Both the position numbers and the translations under genes were made by a program. Below, in pieces: positions 17,394 to 26,310 of a DNA stretch of 44,183 nucleotides. Position 1 is the stretch's first letter. Each line of letters begins with the position of its first letter. The DNA is from Bacillota bacterium (GTDB lineage: Bacteria; Bacillota; Sulfobacillia; Sulfobacillales; Sulfobacillaceae): NCBI GenBank assembly GCA_021798975.1, contig JAJZBJ010000006.1:1-44183 (forward strand), written 5' to 3'. The notes beneath the pieces were generated by a model that was not told where the DNA came from, did not search any database, and worked only from the letters and a program-made list of their open reading frames with translations.

Positions 17394-18434
17394 ATGAAAG
17401 CGCGTCGTCGTCGCCCCAACGGAAGATTCTGGACCTTATCGGCGCTCGTGGTGATTCTTATCGGCGCGGTGGGCTACCTTCAGCACCGTCCCCAATCCGT
17501 GCGGCCGTCGCAGCCGCGCCTGGCGGGGCAGAAAGCACCTGATCCCAACGCGCGTTTCGCGCTGTCGCATTGGTCGTCGGCCCCCATTACGTTGAACCAA
17601 GCCATGATGGGATTCGCAGCAGTCCACACGCCCGGAGCGATCTGGGTGTTGGGCGGGCTCGTGAACGACCAAAGCACGACCTCTATTCAAAAAATCGGCG
17701 TCAGCGCCAACGGGACACTCCAGCCTATCCAGAATGTCGCTCCCGGTCTTCCGATTGCCAATCATGACGGCTCCGCCGTTCTGTTCGGACGGCAGGTCAT
17801 CTTGCTGGGCGGCGGATCCTATCTATCCAGCAACGCCGTATTCCGCTTGCCTCTGCCGCGCATGAACCCGGCCACCACATTGAACCCGCTTCCGACCCCG
17901 CTCTCAGACCTGCAAGCGGTGGCGGACGGCCCCCGCATTCTGGTGCTCGGAGGGCATGACGCCGGGGCCCCTTTATCCACCATCTGGGCCTATAATCCCG
18001 CCCGTCCCATTACGGTTTGGGCTCACCTGCCGGTCGGTGTCCGCTACCCGGCAGTCGCCCGGGACAGCCAGATGCTCTACAGCATCGGTGGGTTGAGCGC
18101 AACCGGGGTTACCCGCCAAGCCGTCGCGTATAGTCTGAAGACCGGCAAAATGACGAAGCTGCCGCCCTACCCGCTGGCCATCCAATACGCCGAAGCTGCC
18201 GTGATTGGCGGCCACCTGGTGGTGGCGGGAGGTAAAACCGCGTCCAATTGGACCAATGCGGTGTACTGGTACAACACCGCCAAACGCCGCTGGATGCGGG
18301 CCCCGTCCATGCCCTCCGCGGCCGGATATGGCGCCTTGGTGGCGATATCTCCCACCCAAGCCGTCTGGCTGGGCGGAGAGGGTCCCTCCGGAACCTTGGA
18401 TGTCGTCTGGCGGATTTCCGCTAGTACACCGTAA
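17394..18434 (+). CDS. Membrane-anchored Kelch-repeat beta-propeller protein
   Basis: A 346-residue protein. Basic residues 4-11 and a hydrophobic stretch at about 13-29 (WTLSALVVILIGAVGYL) form an uncleaved signal anchor, so the rest is outside. At least six Kelch-type blades are marked by double glycines: WVLGGL, VILLGGGSY, ILVLGGHD, LYSIGGLS, LVVAGGK and VWLGGEG, each followed by a W or Y near the blade end. Such propellers usually bind proteins or sugars; ligand unknown. ATG 17394 follows GGGAGG. The stop region overlaps glnA by 14 bp tail to tail. Confidence 0.87.
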   Translation: MKARRRRPNGRFWTLSALVVILIGAVGYLQHRPQSVRPSQPRLAGQKAPDPNARFALSHWSSAPITLNQAMMGFAAVHTPGAIWVLGGLVNDQSTTSIQKIGVSANGTLQPIQNVAPGLPIANHDGSAVLFGRQVILLGGGSYLSSNAVFRLPLPRMNPATTLNPLPTPLSDLQAVADGPRILVLGGHDAGAPLSTIWAYNPARPITVWAHLPVGVRYPAVARDSQMLYSIGGLSATGVTRQAVAYSLKTGKMTKLPPYPLAIQYAEAAVIGGHLVVAGGKTASNWTNAVYWYNTAKRRWMRAPSMPSAAGYGALVAISPTQAVWLGGEGPSGTLDVVWRISASTP

Positions 18435-19743
18435 GATATTGGTCAATCTCCCAAGGGTGCACTTCGTGGCGAAAGATGTCCCACTCCAGCCGCTTGGCTT
18501 CGACAAACCGCTGGGCGATGTGATCCCCCAGCGCATCCCAAATGACGGGGTCGTTTTCGAGGTATTGCAGGGCTTCCTGAAGGTTCTCGGGCAAGCTTTC
18601 AATACCCAACTCCCGCCGCTCCGCCTCGTGCATGCGGTAGATGTTCCGGGTAATCGGAGCGGGCAAGTCATACCGGCGTTTTAGACCATCCAGCCCCGCC
18701 TTAATGGTGACCGCCAAGGCGAGATAGGGATTGCAGGAGGGGTCCGGCGATCTCAGTTCGATGCGGGTGTCCACGCCCTGCGACTTCGGGACCCGGATCA
18801 TGGGGCTGCGGTTCCCCATCGACCAGGCAATATAGACCGGCGCCTCATAGCCCGGCACCAAGCGTTTATAGCTGTTCACCAAGGGATTGGTGATGGCCGT
18901 ATAGGCGCGGGCGTGGATCATCAATCCAGAAATGTAGCGCATGGCCACCCGGCTCAGTCCATTCGGCTGCTTCGGGTCGAAGAAGGCATTGCCATTATCA
19001 TCGAATAGCGATTGATGCAGATGCAAGCCCGACCCATTAACCCCGGCAATGGGTTTCGGCATAAAAGTGGCGTGGAATCCATGGCGGCGCGCGACCGTCC
19101 GCGCCACCACCCGGAATGTGACTATGGCGTCGGCTGTTGCGAGAGCGTCTGCATAGCGGAAGTCGATCTCGTGCTGTCCGGGAGATACTTCGTGATGCGT
19201 GGCCTCGATGTCAAATCCCATTTCCTCCAAGGCCAGGACAATATCGCGGCGGGCGTCCTCGCCCACATCGCTGGGTGACAAGTCGAAATATCCGCCTTCA
19301 TCCGTCGTCTTGATGGTCGGCGTCCCGTCCGGCGACAACTGGAACAAAAAGAATTCCGGCTCCGGTCCCACCATGATGTCATAACCCATCTCCTTAGCCT
19401 CGCGCAGCACCCGCTTGAGGGCACTGCGCGGGCATCCGGCAAAAGGCGACCCATCGGGATTCTTAATATCGCATAGAAGCCGCGCCGTGAGTCCGGTGCT
19501 GTCCGTCCATGGCAGCACCACAAACGTGTTCGGATCCGGATCCAGATACATATCGGACTCTTCAATGCGCACAAATCCCTCGATGGATGATCCGTCGAAC
19601 ATCATGCGTCCATCGAGCGCTTCGGGCAGCAACTTGGCCGGAATCGATACGTTTTTGACAACCCCTAAAATGTCGGTAAATTGCAGCCGCACAAATTTTA
19701 CGTTGAGCTGGCGAGCCTTTTCCAGGACTTGCTCCTTGGTCAC
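18421..19743 (-). CDS. glnA: Glutamine synthetase type I, alpha subgroup
   Basis: A 440-residue ATP-dependent enzyme making glutamine from glutamate and ammonia. It has FDGSSIEGFVRIEESDM, GPEPEFFLF, the ATP-site NGSGLHLHQS, NPLVNSYKRLVPGYEAP and NRSPMIRVP, in the right order. The C-terminal region reads MHEAERRELGIESLPENLQEAL and has no adenylylation tyrosine motif, so it is the alpha type, regulated by feedback and protein contact. GTG 19743 has AGGGAGG six bases upstream; the frame extends further without a site. It is monocistronic. Confidence 0.96.
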   Translation of the reverse strand: MTKEQVLEKARQLNVKFVRLQFTDILGVVKNVSIPAKLLPEALDGRMMFDGSSIEGFVRIEESDMYLDPDPNTFVVLPWTDSTGLTARLLCDIKNPDGSPFAGCPRSALKRVLREAKEMGYDIMVGPEPEFFLFQLSPDGTPTIKTTDEGGYFDLSPSDVGEDARRDIVLALEEMGFDIEATHHEVSPGQHEIDFRYADALATADAIVTFRVVARTVARRHGFHATFMPKPIAGVNGSGLHLHQSLFDDNGNAFFDPKQPNGLSRVAMRYISGLMIHARAYTAITNPLVNSYKRLVPGYEAPVYIAWSMGNRSPMIRVPKSQGVDTRIELRSPDPSCNPYLALAVTIKAGLDGLKRRYDLPAPITRNIYRMHEAERRELGIESLPENLQEALQYLENDPVIWDALGDHIAQRFVEAKRLEWDIFRHEVHPWEIDQYLTVY

Positions 19744-19774
19744 AGCCGACCTCCCTAATCTTTGCCTTGCCGCC

Positions 19775-19783
19775 ATTCTAGCA
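19775..19783 (-). promoter_or_regulatory. Extended -10 promoter of glnA
   Basis: On the minus strand the sequence reads TGCTAGAAT, an extended -10 element (TGn plus TAGAAT), 31 bp upstream of the glnA start. No good -35 is visible, which is usual for extended -10 promoters. Confidence 0.5.
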
Positions 19784-19822
19784 AAACCGCCGAGATGGAC
19801 ACGAATCCGGCGGGGAAAATGT

Positions 19823-19846
19823 ATGAGCGGCATGCCGGCGGCTCAT
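19823..19846. promoter_or_regulatory. Nested palindrome between glnA and the DUF421 gene
   Basis: ATGAGC (19823-19828) is mirrored by GCTCAT (19841-19846), enclosing the perfect palindrome GGCATGCC at 19829-19836. It lies upstream of both divergent genes. It does not match the GlnR or TnrA consensus. Confidence 0.4.
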
Positions 19847-19885: not shown

Positions 19886-20410
19886 GTGGAAGCGTTATCG
19901 CTGGTTGGACGGACCGCCATACTCTGGCTTACAGCGCTGGTGGTGTTCCGTATTATGGGCAAGCGGACTTTGGGAAAAATGGGGCCGTTTGACTTTGCCG
20001 TGGTTATCATGATCGGCGAGGCGGTAGCCATTGGCATGGAAGATACCCGCGAACCCCTCATCCACGCCATTGCCATTACGGCCGCGCTGGGCTTTTTGCA
20101 GTGGCTCCTGACCTGGCTGAACTACCGCTTCCGCTGGCTCGAAAAAATCACCCAAGGCCAAGCGGCCACCGTCGTGGTGAACGGGGTTATCAAGACCAAG
20201 ACGCTGCGCAAGGAGCGCATGTCCAAGGCAGACCTCCTCATGGAGCTCCGGCAAGGCCAGGCCAAGCTGAAAGACATCAAAAAGGCGCGGCTGGAGGCGT
20301 CCGGGAAGGTCAGCGTGGTCAACAAGCCTTCGTCTTCTTCGTCGTCGTCTTCCTCTTCGCAAAAAAAGGGCGGCAATAGCTCGGGGGGGCCAGGCGGCTC
20401 GGGATCCTAG
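19886..20410 (+). CDS. DUF421/YetF-family membrane protein with polyserine tail
   Basis: A 174-residue protein. Three hydrophobic segments in the first 80 residues include RIMGKRTLGKMGPFDFAVVIMIGEAVAIG, then a cytoplasmic DUF421 beta domain, VVVNGVIKTKTLRKERMSKADLLMELRQ...LEASGKVSVV. After NKP come ten consecutive serines, then QKK and a Gly/Ser-rich end; this disordered tail is unusual for the family. GTG 19886 follows GGGGAGG. Function of DUF421 proteins is poorly known. The stop overlaps the convergent gene by 4 bp. Confidence 0.88.
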   Translation: MEALSLVGRTAILWLTALVVFRIMGKRTLGKMGPFDFAVVIMIGEAVAIGMEDTREPLIHAIAITAALGFLQWLLTWLNYRFRWLEKITQGQAATVVVNGVIKTKTLRKERMSKADLLMELRQGQAKLKDIKKARLEASGKVSVVNKPSSSSSSSSSSQKKGGNSSGGPGGSGS

Positions 20411-21111: not shown

Positions 21112-21292
21112 GCCTGTCTTCCCTCCAGTTCGTGTGGTCCCCAGAATCCTTTCCCCTATTGTAACGGTCTCCCGTCGAGATGGAACACTTTAACTGTCAT
21201 TATGTGCCACAAACCCTGCCAGGCCAGTTGTCAGCGGAGGCCGGGTGCGCTACCCTGGGATAGTCCAAAATTTGCCAGAGGAGGGTCTCCCG

Positions 21293-21775
21293 ATGGATGC
21301 TGCCCTGAAGAAACAAGCCCTGCGCCTCTTCACGTACGGTCTCTATGTCGCCACGGCGGGCCGCGGCGAGGAGGTCACAGCCGGCACCATCAACTGGGTG
21401 TCGCAGGCCTCTTTTCAGCCGCCGCTGGTGATGGCCGCCATCAAGTCCGACAGCCACCTGCATGCTGTCATCGAGGCGGCTGGAACGTTCGCTCTGAATG
21501 TGTTGGGAGCCGACCAGAAGCCCATCGCTTCAGACTTTTTCCGGCCCAGCCAGCGGGAAGGCTCCACGATCAACGGGCACGCGTTCGAGACCGGTCCGGT
21601 CACGGGATCACCGTTGCTGACCGAGTTGCCTGCGTGGGTGGAGTGCCGCGTGGTGGGAAGCGTGAAACAAGGCGACCACAGCGTCTACGTCGCGGAAGTG
21701 GTGGAAGCCGGCCTCCGCTCCGACGGCGCGAAAGCGCTGGACATGTGGAACACCGGCTGGTTTTATGGGGGCTAG
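21293..21775 (+). CDS. Flavin reductase-like FMN-binding protein
   Basis: A 160-residue split-barrel flavoprotein. The family signature is YGLYVATAGRGEEVTAGTINWVSQASFQPPLVMAAIK, followed by GTFALNVLGADQ and the strand YVAEVVEAGL. It may supply reduced flavin to a partner oxygenase or act as an NAD(P)H:FMN reductase. ATG 21293 has GAGGAGGG seven bases upstream; an earlier in-frame ATG lacks a site. It is flanked by minus-strand genes on both sides, so it is probably monocistronic. Confidence 0.9.
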   Translation: MDAALKKQALRLFTYGLYVATAGRGEEVTAGTINWVSQASFQPPLVMAAIKSDSHLHAVIEAAGTFALNVLGADQKPIASDFFRPSQREGSTINGHAFETGPVTGSPLLTELPAWVECRVVGSVKQGDHSVYVAEVVEAGLRSDGAKALDMWNTGWFYGG

Positions 21776-21790: not shown

Positions 21791-21815
21791 GCGCGTTCCG
21801 CTTATGCGGACGCGC
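21791..21815. terminator. Hairpin between convergent genes
   Basis: GCGCG-T-TCCGC pairs with GCGGA-CGCGC around TTAT, with one bulged T. It sits 16 bp after the flavin reductase stop and covers the stop codon of the convergent gene ending at 21802. There is no T-run. Confidence 0.4.
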
Positions 21816-22884
21816 TTCGGGCTTCCATCCGGATACGTTCTATCTCGCCATCATCGATAGCCCGCTCAAAGCGCCGAAACCCAGCCATAGAAAATCCATG
21901 CGCCTCCGCCAGCCCACGGATTTCACGCACTCGGGCCACATCGATGCTAGGCCCCAGCGTGAAGCACTCCAAACGCCCTTCCAGAGCCAAAATCATAGTC
22001 TCGGCCATGCACGCCTCAACCATTTTGGGCGGAAATCCAAAGTCAAACCCCATGTCGGCTTCCGCACCCGGCACTTGAATGACGCCCCCGTCCAACACCA
22101 GCACGTCGCGCCTCTTTTCCATGACCGCGCGCGAAAGGTTGCGGGGACGGGCGACGTCCGTCACCACGGCGCCCGGCTTGAGGTCCTCCGGCTCGACGAT
22201 GACACCTGTGGCGGAAGACACCGCCACCACAATATCAGCCGGGCGCACCGCCTCAGGGATATTCGTAGTCCAGCGGACATCGACGTCGGGACATTGCGCG
22301 CGGATTTCTGCTTCAAGAGCCTCCAAGTGCTCGGGCGTCCGCGCCACCAGGGTCAAGTGGCGCACTTGTTCGGCCAAGAGCAGGGTGGCCGCCCGCCCTA
22401 TCGCTCCCGTGGCGCCAATCACCGTGGCCCCGGACGAGCGGACGTCTATCTGCATGCGCTCCGCCGCTTTCAGGGCGCCTTCGACAGCCGTGGCGGTGGT
22501 GTAGGAGTTTCCGGTTGTTACAGGAATCGACAACCGCTGGGACAGAGTGATGCCGCGATCCCCGGCAATCTTGGTGAAGGCCCCCAGCCCCAAGATCTCG
22601 GCCCCCAGCTCCTCGGCCAAGCGGCCGGCCCGTTCCAGTTTTTTCAATACCCACTCATAGGGGGCATTGAGCAAAATCTCGGGCGTAAGCGGCAATCCCA
22701 GCAGCCAACCTTCGAGTTCCTCGCCGCTCTTGGAGCGCACGCCGGTCACATGGCCAATCTTCAGGGGACCCACCTGCTTAAAGGCCCACTCGACCAGCTT
22801 TTCCGGCAAATACTGGGTAACCGGGAACTTCCGGGCGAAATCATCAAACCGCAGCGGGTGAATGATAAAGGCAAACTTGCGCAT
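21802..22884 (-). CDS. Acyl-ACP reductase (AAR)-like / shikimate-dehydrogenase-like oxidoreductase
   Basis: A 360-residue Rossmann enzyme. From memory it aligns along its length with the cyanobacterial long-chain acyl-ACP reductase: LGAFTKI, PVTTGNSYTTATAVEGALKAAERM, nucleotide-binding VIGATGAIG (155-163), the VLDGGVI region, and ACMAETMILALEG holding C292, which lines up with the thioester-forming cysteine of those enzymes. That would make it a fatty aldehyde producer. Annotation as shikimate dehydrogenase would be misleading because the substrate part differs. ATG 22884 follows CGGAGGTG. An inverted repeat lies just upstream; a MaoC hydratase gene is 103 bp upstream. Confidence 0.78.
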   Translation of the reverse strand: MRKFAFIIHPLRFDDFARKFPVTQYLPEKLVEWAFKQVGPLKIGHVTGVRSKSGEELEGWLLGLPLTPEILLNAPYEWVLKKLERAGRLAEELGAEILGLGAFTKIAGDRGITLSQRLSIPVTTGNSYTTATAVEGALKAAERMQIDVRSSGATVIGATGAIGRAATLLLAEQVRHLTLVARTPEHLEALEAEIRAQCPDVDVRWTTNIPEAVRPADIVVAVSSATGVIVEPEDLKPGAVVTDVARPRNLSRAVMEKRRDVLVLDGGVIQVPGAEADMGFDFGFPPKMVEACMAETMILALEGRLECFTLGPSIDVARVREIRGLAEAHGFSMAGFRRFERAIDDGEIERIRMEARSASA

Positions 22885-22895
22885 CTGGCACCTCC

Positions 22896-22913
22896 GTGCA
22901 CAAAACTGTGCAC
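22896..22913. promoter_or_regulatory. Inverted repeat GTGCACA-AAAC-TGTGCAC
   Basis: A perfect 7-4-7 dyad starting 12 bp upstream of the AAR-like start and abutting its ribosome binding site. On the minus strand a possible -10 TAAAAT (22914-22919) lies immediately upstream, so a bound regulator would block initiation or elongation. The regulator is unknown. Confidence 0.6.
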
Positions 22914-22969
22914 ATTTTACCATAGGCGCGAGAGCGCATCCATGCAAACCGGCCGACACAGGTCGCCGA

Positions 22970-23008
22970 ATTCGCTCCCGGCCCGCGCTAGGCGGGCCGA
23001 AGGCGAAT
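22970..23008. terminator. Long nested hairpin at the end of the MaoC gene
   Basis: ATTCGC (22970-22975) pairs with GCGAAT (23003-23008), and inside it GGCCCGC (22980-22986) pairs with GCGGGCC (22992-22998). It includes the maoC stop codon. It lacks a T-run but may slow or end transcription before the AAR-like gene. Confidence 0.45.
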
Positions 23009-23425
23009 CAGCGCCGCCCCTTCGGTCACCATAATCGGCACGGCGTCCTGGTTTTCGACCTCAAAGCGGAATCGAATGATCCCGCGCGGTTTGGAGGTTG
23101 ACCGGCGGGTTTCCGTAATCGTTACCGTGGTATAGAGGGTGTCGCCGGGACGGACCGGAGCCAGCCATTGAACCGTATCCAGACCCGGCCCGCCCATCGA
23201 CTCGTCCCCCATGACATGGGCCTCGGCCCAACGAGCCCACACCACCGCCAAGGTGTGGTAGCCTGAGGCGATCAGGCCGCCGAACGGGCCCTGGGCCGAA
23301 AACGCCTCATCAATGTGGATTTTCTGCGGATCGTACTGCTGTGCAAACTGGATAATATCCTCGCGACTGACCTGAATCGGGTCTAAACGATAGACGGTTC
23401 CTTGCTGGAATTCCTCGAAGTACAT
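22988..23425 (-). CDS. MaoC-like (R)-specific acyl dehydratase/hydratase
   Basis: A 145-residue hot-dog protein. The hydratase-2 motif is visible in YDPQKIHIDEAFSAQGPFGGLIASGYHTLAV, with the catalytic Asp and His at QYDPQKIHID. VQWLAPVRPGDTLYTTVTI is the usual second part. It acts on acyl-CoA or acyl-ACP thioesters. ATG 23425 follows GGGAGG. It lies 74 bp beyond the transhydrogenase genes on the same strand and before the AAR-like gene, hinting at a fatty-acyl role. Confidence 0.92.
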   Translation of the reverse strand: MYFEEFQQGTVYRLDPIQVSREDIIQFAQQYDPQKIHIDEAFSAQGPFGGLIASGYHTLAVVWARWAEAHVMGDESMGGPGLDTVQWLAPVRPGDTLYTTVTITETRRSTSKPRGIIRFRFEVENQDAVPIMVTEGAALIRLRPA

Positions 23426-23499: not shown

Positions 23500-24861
23500 T
23501 TACTGGGCGCTCTCCAGTTCCCTCACCAACGCACCCAACGAGTGTTTGGCATCCCCGAACAACATGCGGGTCTTGGGATCGACGTAGAGCGGATTGTCCA
23601 CACCCGCAAATCCCCGCCCCATGGAGCGCTTCAAGACCACCACATGCCGGGCTTCGTCAACATTCAGGATCGGCATGCCGAACAGCGGGCTGCCCGTCTG
23701 GGTTCGCGCCGCGGGGTTGGTGACGTCATTCGCCCCCACCACCAACACCACGTCGGTGTCGCGAAAGCGGGGATTGATGCGATCCATTTCCCACAACTGG
23801 TCATAGGCGACGTCCGCCTCCGCTAGCAAAACATTCATGTGGCCCGGCATGCGGCCTGCCACCGGGTGGATTCCGAACAGCACTTCGACCCCGAACCCGT
23901 TCAGCAAGTCGATCACCTGTTTGACCTCCAACTGCGCGCGCGCGACCGCCAACCCGTATCCGGGGACCACCACCACTTTTTTCGCATAACGCAGCAGCAT
24001 AGCCGTGTCGTCATGCGTAATGGGCTGGACCGTCCCCTCGGCCGTGCCCGCTTCTCCTTGAGCGGCCTTCCCACTCCAGATGACGTTCATCAGCGAACGG
24101 TGCATGGCGCGGCTCATTTGCTGGGTCAAGATGGTCCCCGAAGCTCCGACCAGCGTGCCGGCAATAATCAGCAGCTGGTTTTGCAGCACGAATCCCGTGG
24201 CGGCTGCCGAAAGTCCGGTGAGGGCATTGAGGAGCGATATCACCACCGGCATGTCGGCTCCTCCGATGGGAAGTGTCAAGAGTGCGCCACCCGCCGCAGC
24301 GGCCGCCATGACGCCCAACGCGGCACCGATGCCCCCGTGTCCGGACGTCGCCAGGTAAACGGCGCCCGCCACAACCGCTGCCAGGACCGTCAATCCCAGA
24401 AGACGCAATCCTAGGGCCATGCGCAGATCCACACGGATCCACTCTTGCAGCTTCAAAAAGGCGATGATGCTGCCGCCAAAACTTACGGAACCCAACACCA
24501 TGGTAAGCAGGGCCAGCCAGGATGCCGCCCCCGACGACCCGGGCCATCCCCCCGCCGCCACCAAAGCTGCGGCCCCGCCTCCCAAGCCGTTGAAGAAGGC
24601 CACCATCTGGGGCATGGCGGTCATGCGCACGCGCCGGGCCGAGACAACCCCGATGGCGCTCCCCAATAGGGCCACCAACGCCACCCAGACCACATGGTCG
24701 TAGTGGGGCGCAAAAGCCAACGTCGTACCTAATGCCAACAGCATCCCGATCGCCAACAACCGGTTGCCCGAACGGGCAGACGCCGGCGAACCCAAAAATC
24801 GCACGCCTAGGACGAACAGCGTCGCCGAAGCCATGTACAGCACCTGGGCGATGGGGTTCAT
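23500..24861 (-). CDS. pntB: NAD(P) transhydrogenase subunit beta
   Basis: A 453-residue membrane subunit of the proton-pumping transhydrogenase, which drives hydride transfer from NADH to NADP+. The N-terminal part holds about nine helices, including MPQMVAFFNGLGGGAAALVA. The C-terminal dIII domain binds NADP(H): VVVPGYGLAVARAQ, GIHPVAGRMPGHMNVLLAEA, VLVVGANDVTNPAA, VVVLKRSMGRGFAGVDNPL. The start ATG shares ATGA with the stop of pntAB. It is the last subunit gene of the set. Confidence 0.97.
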   Translation of the reverse strand: MNPIAQVLYMASATLFVLGVRFLGSPASARSGNRLLAIGMLLALGTTLAFAPHYDHVVWVALVALLGSAIGVVSARRVRMTAMPQMVAFFNGLGGGAAALVAAGGWPGSSGAASWLALLTMVLGSVSFGGSIIAFLKLQEWIRVDLRMALGLRLLGLTVLAAVVAGAVYLATSGHGGIGAALGVMAAAAAGGALLTLPIGGADMPVVISLLNALTGLSAAATGFVLQNQLLIIAGTLVGASGTILTQQMSRAMHRSLMNVIWSGKAAQGEAGTAEGTVQPITHDDTAMLLRYAKKVVVVPGYGLAVARAQLEVKQVIDLLNGFGVEVLFGIHPVAGRMPGHMNVLLAEADVAYDQLWEMDRINPRFRDTDVVLVVGANDVTNPAARTQTGSPLFGMPILNVDEARHVVVLKRSMGRGFAGVDNPLYVDPKTRMLFGDAKHSLGALVRELESAQ

Positions 24862-25154
24862 GAGGACCGCCCCGCTTCCCGCTCCGATCGAAACATGGCC
24901 AAAATGCGGTCCGTAACGACAAATCCCCCCACCAAGTTGATGCTGGCGAAGAGCACCGCCGCTAAGGCAATGACGAGCGCGGCTGTTCCGTGCACCGAGA
25001 ACGCCAGAACCAATGCGCCAACCAGAATGATGCCGTGGATGGCGTTGGTGGCGGACATAAGGGGCGTATGCAAAATAGAGGGTACTTTAGCGATGACCTG
25101 AAACCCAGCCAAAACGGCTAAGACGAAAATGTAAATCTCAGCGATTAAGGACAT
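24858..25154 (-). CDS. pntAB: NAD(P) transhydrogenase subunit alpha, part 2
   Basis: A 98-residue membrane subunit with three hydrophobic helices: IYIFVLAVLAGFQVIAKV, SATNAIHGIILVGALVLAF and ALAAVLFASINLVGGFVVT. The VPSILHTPLMSATNAIHG loop is the family signature. ATG 25154 follows AAGGGGGTG. It overlaps pntAA by 17 bp and pntB by 4 bp. The three-subunit form is the one seen in Rhodospirillum and Thermus rather than E. coli. Confidence 0.95.
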   Translation of the reverse strand: MSLIAEIYIFVLAVLAGFQVIAKVPSILHTPLMSATNAIHGIILVGALVLAFSVHGTAALVIALAAVLFASINLVGGFVVTDRILAMFRSEREAGRSS

Positions 25155-26310
25155 CCATGACACCCCCTTCACGACGTTTTACCAGCCCGGTATGGATCAA
25201 CTGCCCTGCGTGGACTAGCACCATGCGGTTCACAATGTCATCATCCGGCAACGATAGCGTGTGATCCGCATCCCAGGCCAAGCCGGCTTGGTCGAGGTAC
25301 TGGAGAAAATTGGCCAGGTTGCGGCCATAGAGCTGGCTTGCATCACGGGGCAGCTCCGAGGCCAAGTTTTGCGCTCCCACGACCTCGACGCCGGCATAGA
25401 ACACGGCGCGCCCGGCCTCCGTCACCTCGGTGTTGCCGCCGCTCTCGGCCGCCAAGTCGATAATGACGGAACCGGGCTTCATGCCGGAAATCATCTCCCG
25501 GGTGATCAAAATCGGAGCGCGCTGGCCGGGAATTTGCGCGGTGGTAATAATGGCATCCGCCCATGCCACCGGTTCGCGCAGGCGCTCATTCTCCTGCCGG
25601 TGGGCCTCCTCGCCCAGTTCTGTGGCATAGCCATCTTGTGTGGCAGACGTTTCGACCTCCAGCGTCAGGAAGCGGGCCCCCAGACTCTCGACCTGCTCGC
25701 GCACTTCGGGCCGCGTATCGAAGGCTTCCACCTGCGCCCCCAGTCGATGGGCGGTGGCGATGGCTTGCAAACCCGCAACACCCGCTCCCAGCACCAAGAC
25801 CCGCGCGGGAGGAATTGTCCCGGCAGCAGTCATCAACAGCGGAAAAAACTTGCGCAGGCGTTCAGCCGCCACCACGGCGGCACGGTATCCGATGACCGTA
25901 CTCAGAGAAGAGAGAACGTCCATGCTCTGGGCCCGGCTGACGCGCGGCAAGGCGTCCATGCTGAGAGCCGTCACCCCGCCGGACGCCCAGAATTCAAAGA
26001 CCTCGACGGGAGCGGAAAAGGGCTTCAGCAGACCCACGACAACCGTACCGCGCGGCACGCCTGCCCAGTCACCCGCATTCCGGGGCCCGTTGACAACCGC
26101 CAGCAGGTCGCTCCCCGCGAGCACGGCGCTGCGGTCCTGCTCTATCACGGCCCCTGCCGCCTGGTATTGCTCGTCATCGAAGCCTGCTCCGTGGCCAGCC
26201 GCAGACTCCATCGTGACCGCATGGCCCTGGGATACTAAGCGGCCCACACTATCGGGGGGCAACGCGACCAGCGTCTCCCCATGCGCCTCCCGCAGCAGTC
26301 CTATCTTCAG
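25138..26310 (-). CDS. pntAA: NAD(P) transhydrogenase subunit alpha, part 1 (CTG start)
   Basis: The 390-residue NAD(H)-binding dI subunit, related to alanine dehydrogenase. VLVLGAGVAGLQAIATAHRLGAQVEAFDTRPEVREQ is the NAD site and TTAQIPGQRAPILI the later loop. The conserved N-terminus KIGLLREAHGETLVALPPDSV is encoded upstream of the first ordinary start (TTG at 26262). It can begin only at CTG 26310, six bases after GGGGGAG, because an in-frame TAG lies at 26323-26325. An ATT at 26316 touches the ribosome site and is unlikely. It is first in the pnt set. Confidence 0.93.
   Translation of the reverse strand: MKIGLLREAHGETLVALPPDSVGRLVSQGHAVTMESAAGHGAGFDDEQYQAAGAVIEQDRSAVLAGSDLLAVVNGPRNAGDWAGVPRGTVVVGLLKPFSAPVEVFEFWASGGVTALSMDALPRVSRAQSMDVLSSLSTVIGYRAAVVAAERLRKFFPLLMTAAGTIPPARVLVLGAGVAGLQAIATAHRLGAQVEAFDTRPEVREQVESLGARFLTLEVETSATQDGYATELGEEAHRQENERLREPVAWADAIITTAQIPGQRAPILITREMISGMKPGSVIIDLAAESGGNTEVTEAGRAVFYAGVEVVGAQNLASELPRDASQLYGRNLANFLQYLDQAGLAWDADHTLSLPDDDIVNRMVLVHAGQLIHTGLVKRREGGVMDVLNR

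Follow-up and report, generated by a model that had tools for sequence, protein, structure and literature searches.

Does the gene of a Bacillota genome that resembles cyanobacterial acyl-ACP reductase (AAR) encode an enzyme that could make fatty aldehydes, and how might such a gene be controlled? The enzyme is familiar mainly from the alkane synthesis of cyanobacteria and, as a domain, from pigment clusters. In the current study, we followed up a first-pass annotation of such a gene in 44,183 nucleotides of DNA (the whole stretch that was analyzed, here called the window; Table 1). The explanation that we consider best as a whole, and in which we have good confidence, is that the protein would work by an AAR-like mechanism and that its gene lies under an operator whose binding protein is very probably F11, a helix-turn-helix protein of about 190 aa that is encoded elsewhere in the same genome (G000:C81). 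The enzyme kind itself is known, and the new part is the regulator-operator system together with a link to aminotransferases. In the literature that we searched, subscription papers excluded, we found no prior description of a stand-alone Bacillota AAR or of the TGTGCACA operator.

Table 1. Positions of the reductase gene, its control elements, and the genes discussed (window coordinates unless a locus is named)
Feature	Position	Strand	Remarks
aar-like gene	21802..22884	-	Stand-alone acyl-thioester reductase (supported assignment), 360 aa plus stop; GATGAIG at 157-163; predicted acyl-Cys C292
Ribosome binding site GGAGG	22891..22895	-	6 bases before ATG 22884
Operator	22895..22914	.	Double palindrome; minus-strand reading TGTGCACA-GTTT-TGTGCACG; consensus TGTGCACA-N4-TGTGCACA
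Extended -10-like box TGGTAAAAT	22914..22922	-	Abuts the operator on its upstream side; read from sequence
MaoC-like hydratase gene	22988..23425	-	Upstream neighbor; Pfam E 1.9e-20
Flavin reductase-like gene	21245..21775	+	Faces AAR; context only, kept in some close relatives
Glutamine synthetase	18421..19833	-	Near AAR across the order; context only
F5	L183:11682-12602		Copy of the window's genome, contig G000:C81

Identity of the putative reductase

On the minus strand (the first-pass annotation had named none), the gene is an intact open reading frame, and its product contains every motif that the first-pass annotation had cited (LGAFTKI, TTGNSYTTA, and VIGATGAIG); the plus strand of the same interval also holds an open frame, which is unrelated to the reductase. 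The claimed likeness to AAR along the length of the protein is borne out by full-length sequence, profile, and fold matches far above chance. In phmmer searches of the PDB, residues 15-332 matched Synechococcus AAR (6jzq) with an E value of 1.9e-21, and the best sequence match was PigE (4ppm; E 4e-34); a profile built from 81 homologues matched PigE at E 6e-55 and AAR at E 7e-42, in both cases over the full length. C292, which had been proposed as the counterpart of the AAR acyl-cysteine, does indeed align with it, E-A-C-M-A-E-T-M of the window protein falling on A-C-F-A-E-A-M (C294) of Synechococcus AAR. This cysteine is invariant in all 81 homologues, among which the GxxGxxG (GATGxIG) loop and most of TTGN vary little or not at all.

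An AlphaFold (AF2) model, built from the window protein and 80 homologues (pLDDT 90; pTM 0.90), had AAR chains as its best PDB matches throughout (6jzy_A; TM 0.77/0.80, E 1e-24), so that the structure comparison proposed by the first-pass annotation yielded a whole-length fold match. The AAR fold, a Cys at the C294 position, and the GATGxIG loop place the protein in the superfamily that comprises AAR, the N-terminal part of PigE, and the C-terminal part of TamH (COG5322). Within this superfamily it falls outside both named families. Its score against the cyanobacterial AAR model TIGR04058 was 98.1 bits over the full length, compared with an equivalog cutoff of 449.7; its 206.7 bits against the PigE model NF053554 cover the reductase domain only, short of the score above 850 that marks PigE, and the fusion with a class III aminotransferase that goes with that family is lacking.

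Sequence and model thus support a stand-alone acyl-thioester reductase of the AAR/PigE-N type. With the AAR of Synechococcus elongatus (PDB 6JZQ, 6JZU, and 6JZY), it shares the full-length three-domain fold, GATGxIG, TTGN, the acyl-Cys, and the stand-alone size; however, identity is 27%, and the gene has the operator and F11 as its putative control. By sequence, the closest characterized relatives are the PigE and TamH reductase domains, not AAR alone. The N-terminal domain of PigE (prodigiosin; PDB 4PPM) and the C-terminal domain of TamH (tambjamine) have the same Cys, and both reduce thioesters to aldehydes, but they occur in natural-product clusters as parts of proteins that also contain a class III aminotransferase, whereas the window protein stands alone, in housekeeping-like surroundings. 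Stand-alone enzymes of this sort make up a widespread subfamily of their own within a known kind of reductase.

Predicted chemistry and alternative readings

In AAR, Cys294 bears the acyl group and GATGDIG binds the cofactor (PMC7089970), and the homologous domains of PigE and TamH have published thioester-to-aldehyde activity (PMC8341465, PMC9594044). In the window protein, an acyl chain carried by ACP (or CoA) would pass to Cys292, forming an acyl-enzyme, and NAD(P)H bound at the Rossmann loop GATGAIG would supply the hydride that releases the fatty aldehyde. We infer its catalysis, substrate, and cofactor from the fold and sequence relation, the invariant Cys, and the dinucleotide loop, and we regard reductase chemistry on a carrier-bound acyl group as highly likely. 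The choice of dinucleotide deserves caution. AAR holds the NADPH phosphate through R189, R193, and R314 (PMC7089970), and the corresponding residues here are R182, H186, and P312; because R182 alone is kept, NADPH use by the window protein is not secure. Across the family, the first position is R in 80 of 81 sequences, and the other two are R or K in 54 and 55 of 81, respectively. Tyr247 of AAR is likewise replaced, by Arg246. TamH, a related domain, is NADH specific and accepts its partner ACP only, not acyl-CoA (PMC9594044); PigE, whose AAR-like part is its N-terminal region, acts on a thioester, as judged by feeding experiments (PMC8341465).

As for the substrate, we lean toward ordinary long-chain fatty acyl-ACP on the strength of homology. 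That the reductase instead serves a special carrier-bound group (a secondary-metabolite or amino-acyl chain) and feeds an amine, as in PigE and TamH, is unlikely but deserves consideration, given that these are the closest characterized domains, that TamH is restricted to its partner ACP and refuses acyl-CoA, and that a class III aminotransferase occurs in the regulon or as a fusion partner in relatives. Against this, the setting of the gene (dusB-F11-F5-AAR-greA-lysS) is vertically inherited, housekeeping-like, and widespread rather than that of a biosynthetic cluster, and neither a dedicated carrier protein nor a ligase was seen beside it. A shikimate or quinate dehydrogenase, which the first-pass annotation had set against the AAR-type reading, or another dehydrogenase of the amino acid type appears very improbable. 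The best Pfam match is Shikimate_DH (PF01488; E 6e-11), and COG5322 bears the name "predicted amino acid dehydrogenase," which points the same way. Yet the PF01488 match spans just residues 143-256, the Rossmann half that the two families have in common; the N- and C-terminal parts, the Cys, and the fold differ, and the model aligns with shikimate/quinate dehydrogenases at a TM of about 0.36. Neither their substrate-domain fold nor the catalytic Lys-Asp pair was found: Lys is invariant nowhere among the 81 homologues, and Lys106, near Asp109, is Ser or Ala in class-level relatives. The invariant Cys, moreover, has no role in shikimate dehydrogenase. We therefore rejected this identity on the Rossmann-only match and the low whole-fold TM. 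Least credible of all is a catalytically dead protein with a structural or sensor role. Four stand-alone copies in relatives (L066, L071, L249, and L250) do carry Arg or Ala in place of the Cys, but such copies were seen only in genomes with a Cys-bearing AAR-aminotransferase fusion, and Cys and dinucleotide loop are intact in 81 of 81 close homologues, the window protein among them.

Gene neighborhood

A MaoC hydratase gene is indeed the upstream neighbor, as had been noted. However, this adjacency is confined to the genus, and a promoter-like box and the operator stand between the two genes; we therefore rejected MaoC as a functional partner, and its presence says little about function. The absence of an aldehyde-deformylating oxygenase (ADO) from the window also holds, and ADO (PF11266) was not detected in the whole draft assembly, which is 87% complete, with a positive Synechococcus control; in this respect, too, the genome differs from those of cyanobacteria with AAR. 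Farther upstream, on the same strand, 23500-26262 encodes pntB plus an alpha-subunit set of NAD(P) transhydrogenase, which few close relatives keep and which is a possible source of NADPH. A poly-Ser/Gly tail (SSSSSSSSSS...GGPGGSGS; 20290-20410) closes the open reading frame at 19886-20410. A search against a defense library gave no match.

In many Bacillota, the gene order is dusB-(F8)-F11-F5-AAR-greA-lysS. F8 (L049:5866-6849) is a protein of about 325 aa without a Pfam match that is conserved between dusB and F11. In the window's genome, dusB-F11-greA-lysS-F5 lies on contig C81 and AAR has been relocated; across the order, the relocated gene adjoins glutamine synthetase. Two of the Cys-less copies, L066 and L071, adjoin greA-lysS.

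F5 is a protein of about 300 aa with no Pfam or NCBIfam match, and a profile search of the PDB with it returned nothing significant. It is present in 100 of 101 relatives (78 of 78 good genomes), and its co-occurrence with AAR, being near universal, is uninformative and was set aside. A fold search with its AF2 model listed AAR among the best matches (TM about 0.45); we rejected F5 as a sequence paralogue of AAR, since profile comparison gave a probability of 0.2% and a weak fold resemblance alone remains.

The operator and F11

The operator spans the stretch between the -10 box and GGAGG. Its position before AAR is kept through most of the order, where the flanks diverge; a -10-like box similar to TGGTAAAAT is conserved in relatives, and the same operator heads F11-F5-AAR operons across Bacillota. 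A strict 14-base pattern was present in 38 of 101 genomes, usually as a single copy, which within the order stands before AAR; the reversed-pattern control was present in 2 genomes. A weight matrix was then trained on the AAR sites of the order, F11 sites being outside the training set. Over 1.66 Mb of AAR loci (two locus sets, in which some genomes are represented twice), it found 72 sites of at least 20 bits, and all 72 lay within 200 bp upstream of AAR (33) or F11 (39); the reversed sequence gave none. The window's genome has exactly two sites with no more than one mismatch, one before AAR and one before F5 (L183:11671-11690); nine further sites have 3 mismatches each, compared with 3 in the control.

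The presence of the operator tracks that of F11. Counting each of 68 genomes once, it occurred in 48 of 50 with F11 and in none of 18 without (Fisher p 1.5e-14, ignoring kinship); by lineage, 14 had both, 11 neither, 2 F11 only, and 0 the site only. As to the two F11-only lineages, the F11 gene of one (G043) is cut by a contig end, and the other (G069) has F11 and lacks the operator. In the window's own family, the three genomes with AAR and without F11 (G015, G016, and G023; 95-97% complete) lack the operator too. From the co-occurrence, the position, and the helix-turn-helix of F11, we infer that F11 binds here: it is in all probability the protein that acts at the operator, is very likely dedicated to the regulation of aldehyde formation, and possibly represents a new regulator family. 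Bound between the -10 box and the ribosome site, F11 would control AAR, and this position suggests repression.

An element in that position that could fold might also be read as an RNA hairpin at the ribosome site, acting in translational control. We consider this most unlikely. Among 69 distinct sites, 64 cells showed a change in one arm only (12 of them G-T), compared with 5 in which both arms had changed; pairing is thus not kept and the changes are mostly uncompensated, which argues for DNA recognition and led us to reject the hairpin. Each half of the operator, in addition, is palindromic by itself, and the element goes with a helix-turn-helix gene. Recognition of the DNA by F11 is the reading that we retain.

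Distribution, fusions, and possible fate of the aldehyde

The location of this AAR homologue outside cyanobacteria, which the first-pass annotation had stressed, stands; that this is an oddity does not, since homologue scans and a tree point to a large, mostly vertically inherited family of Bacillota and Armatimonadota. Among 101 relatives, 84 match at E 1e-3 or better, the majority as full-length family members, and a scan of the genome collection found at least 507 encoding loci; the matches listed include Sulfobacillus, Desulfotomaculum, Pelotomaculum, Sporomusa, Thermoanaerobacter, Carboxydothermus, and Armatimonadota. In the tree, whose clade broadly follows taxonomy, the window protein groups with Sulfobacillus (SH-aLRT 99), which suggests that the window comes from a Sulfobacillus-like organism; the AAR and PigE branches are long, and where exactly they attach is uncertain.

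What becomes of the aldehyde is best approached through relatives that are 45-50% identical and lie outside the window's genus. In three of these (G099, G087, and G046), the operator stands directly ahead of an unlinked class III aminotransferase gene, and in others AAR is fused behind such an aminotransferase (L067-L070), the fusions being placed behind F11-F5. The regulon of these relatives would thereby include the aminotransferase, in trans or as a fusion, and on balance we favor conversion of aldehyde to amine as the best-supported downstream step there, judging by gene arrangement. For the window's own genome, we rejected the idea of a dedicated aminotransferase: its class III enzymes are only 33-44% identical, and none lies behind the operator. 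Transaminase-reductase fusions of Thermaerobacter and Thermincola (PMC10829540) have a reductase of the same family, and such fusions (L067-L070) lie behind F11 and/or F5; these proteins are fused, unlike the window protein, and the published assays considered here concern aminotransferase activity. None of the 11 relatives with an aminotransferase fusion has a Cys-bearing stand-alone copy (from the match list and the reading frames), which is consistent with replacement of the stand-alone copy by the fusion, although the lineages concerned are few. In three further loci (L064:9133-10824, L065, and L201), the AAR domain forms the C terminus of a glycerol-3-phosphate acyltransferase of the PlsY type, which links aldehyde formation to phospholipid synthesis at the domain level.

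One tentative generalization, to which we give somewhat less than even chances, is that in deep-branching Bacillota F11, as a dedicated regulator not described before, and the TGTGCACA-N4-TGTGCACA operator control a core acyl reduction (F5 and AAR, in some with a class III aminotransferase in trans or fused), forming a conserved fatty aldehyde or amine lipid branch outside natural-product clusters. The stand-alone form is mostly vertically inherited, probably tightly regulated, and present in hundreds of Bacillota and Armatimonadota genomes, where generic models match it to shikimate dehydrogenase. The set of enzymes for biocatalysis gains predicted aldehyde-forming reductases from thermophiles and acidophiles, and the operator with its candidate regulator F11 offers a direct handle on the pathway. 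So wide a distribution of the AAR-type form would imply that fatty aldehydes (or amines) belong to the ordinary metabolism of its hosts.
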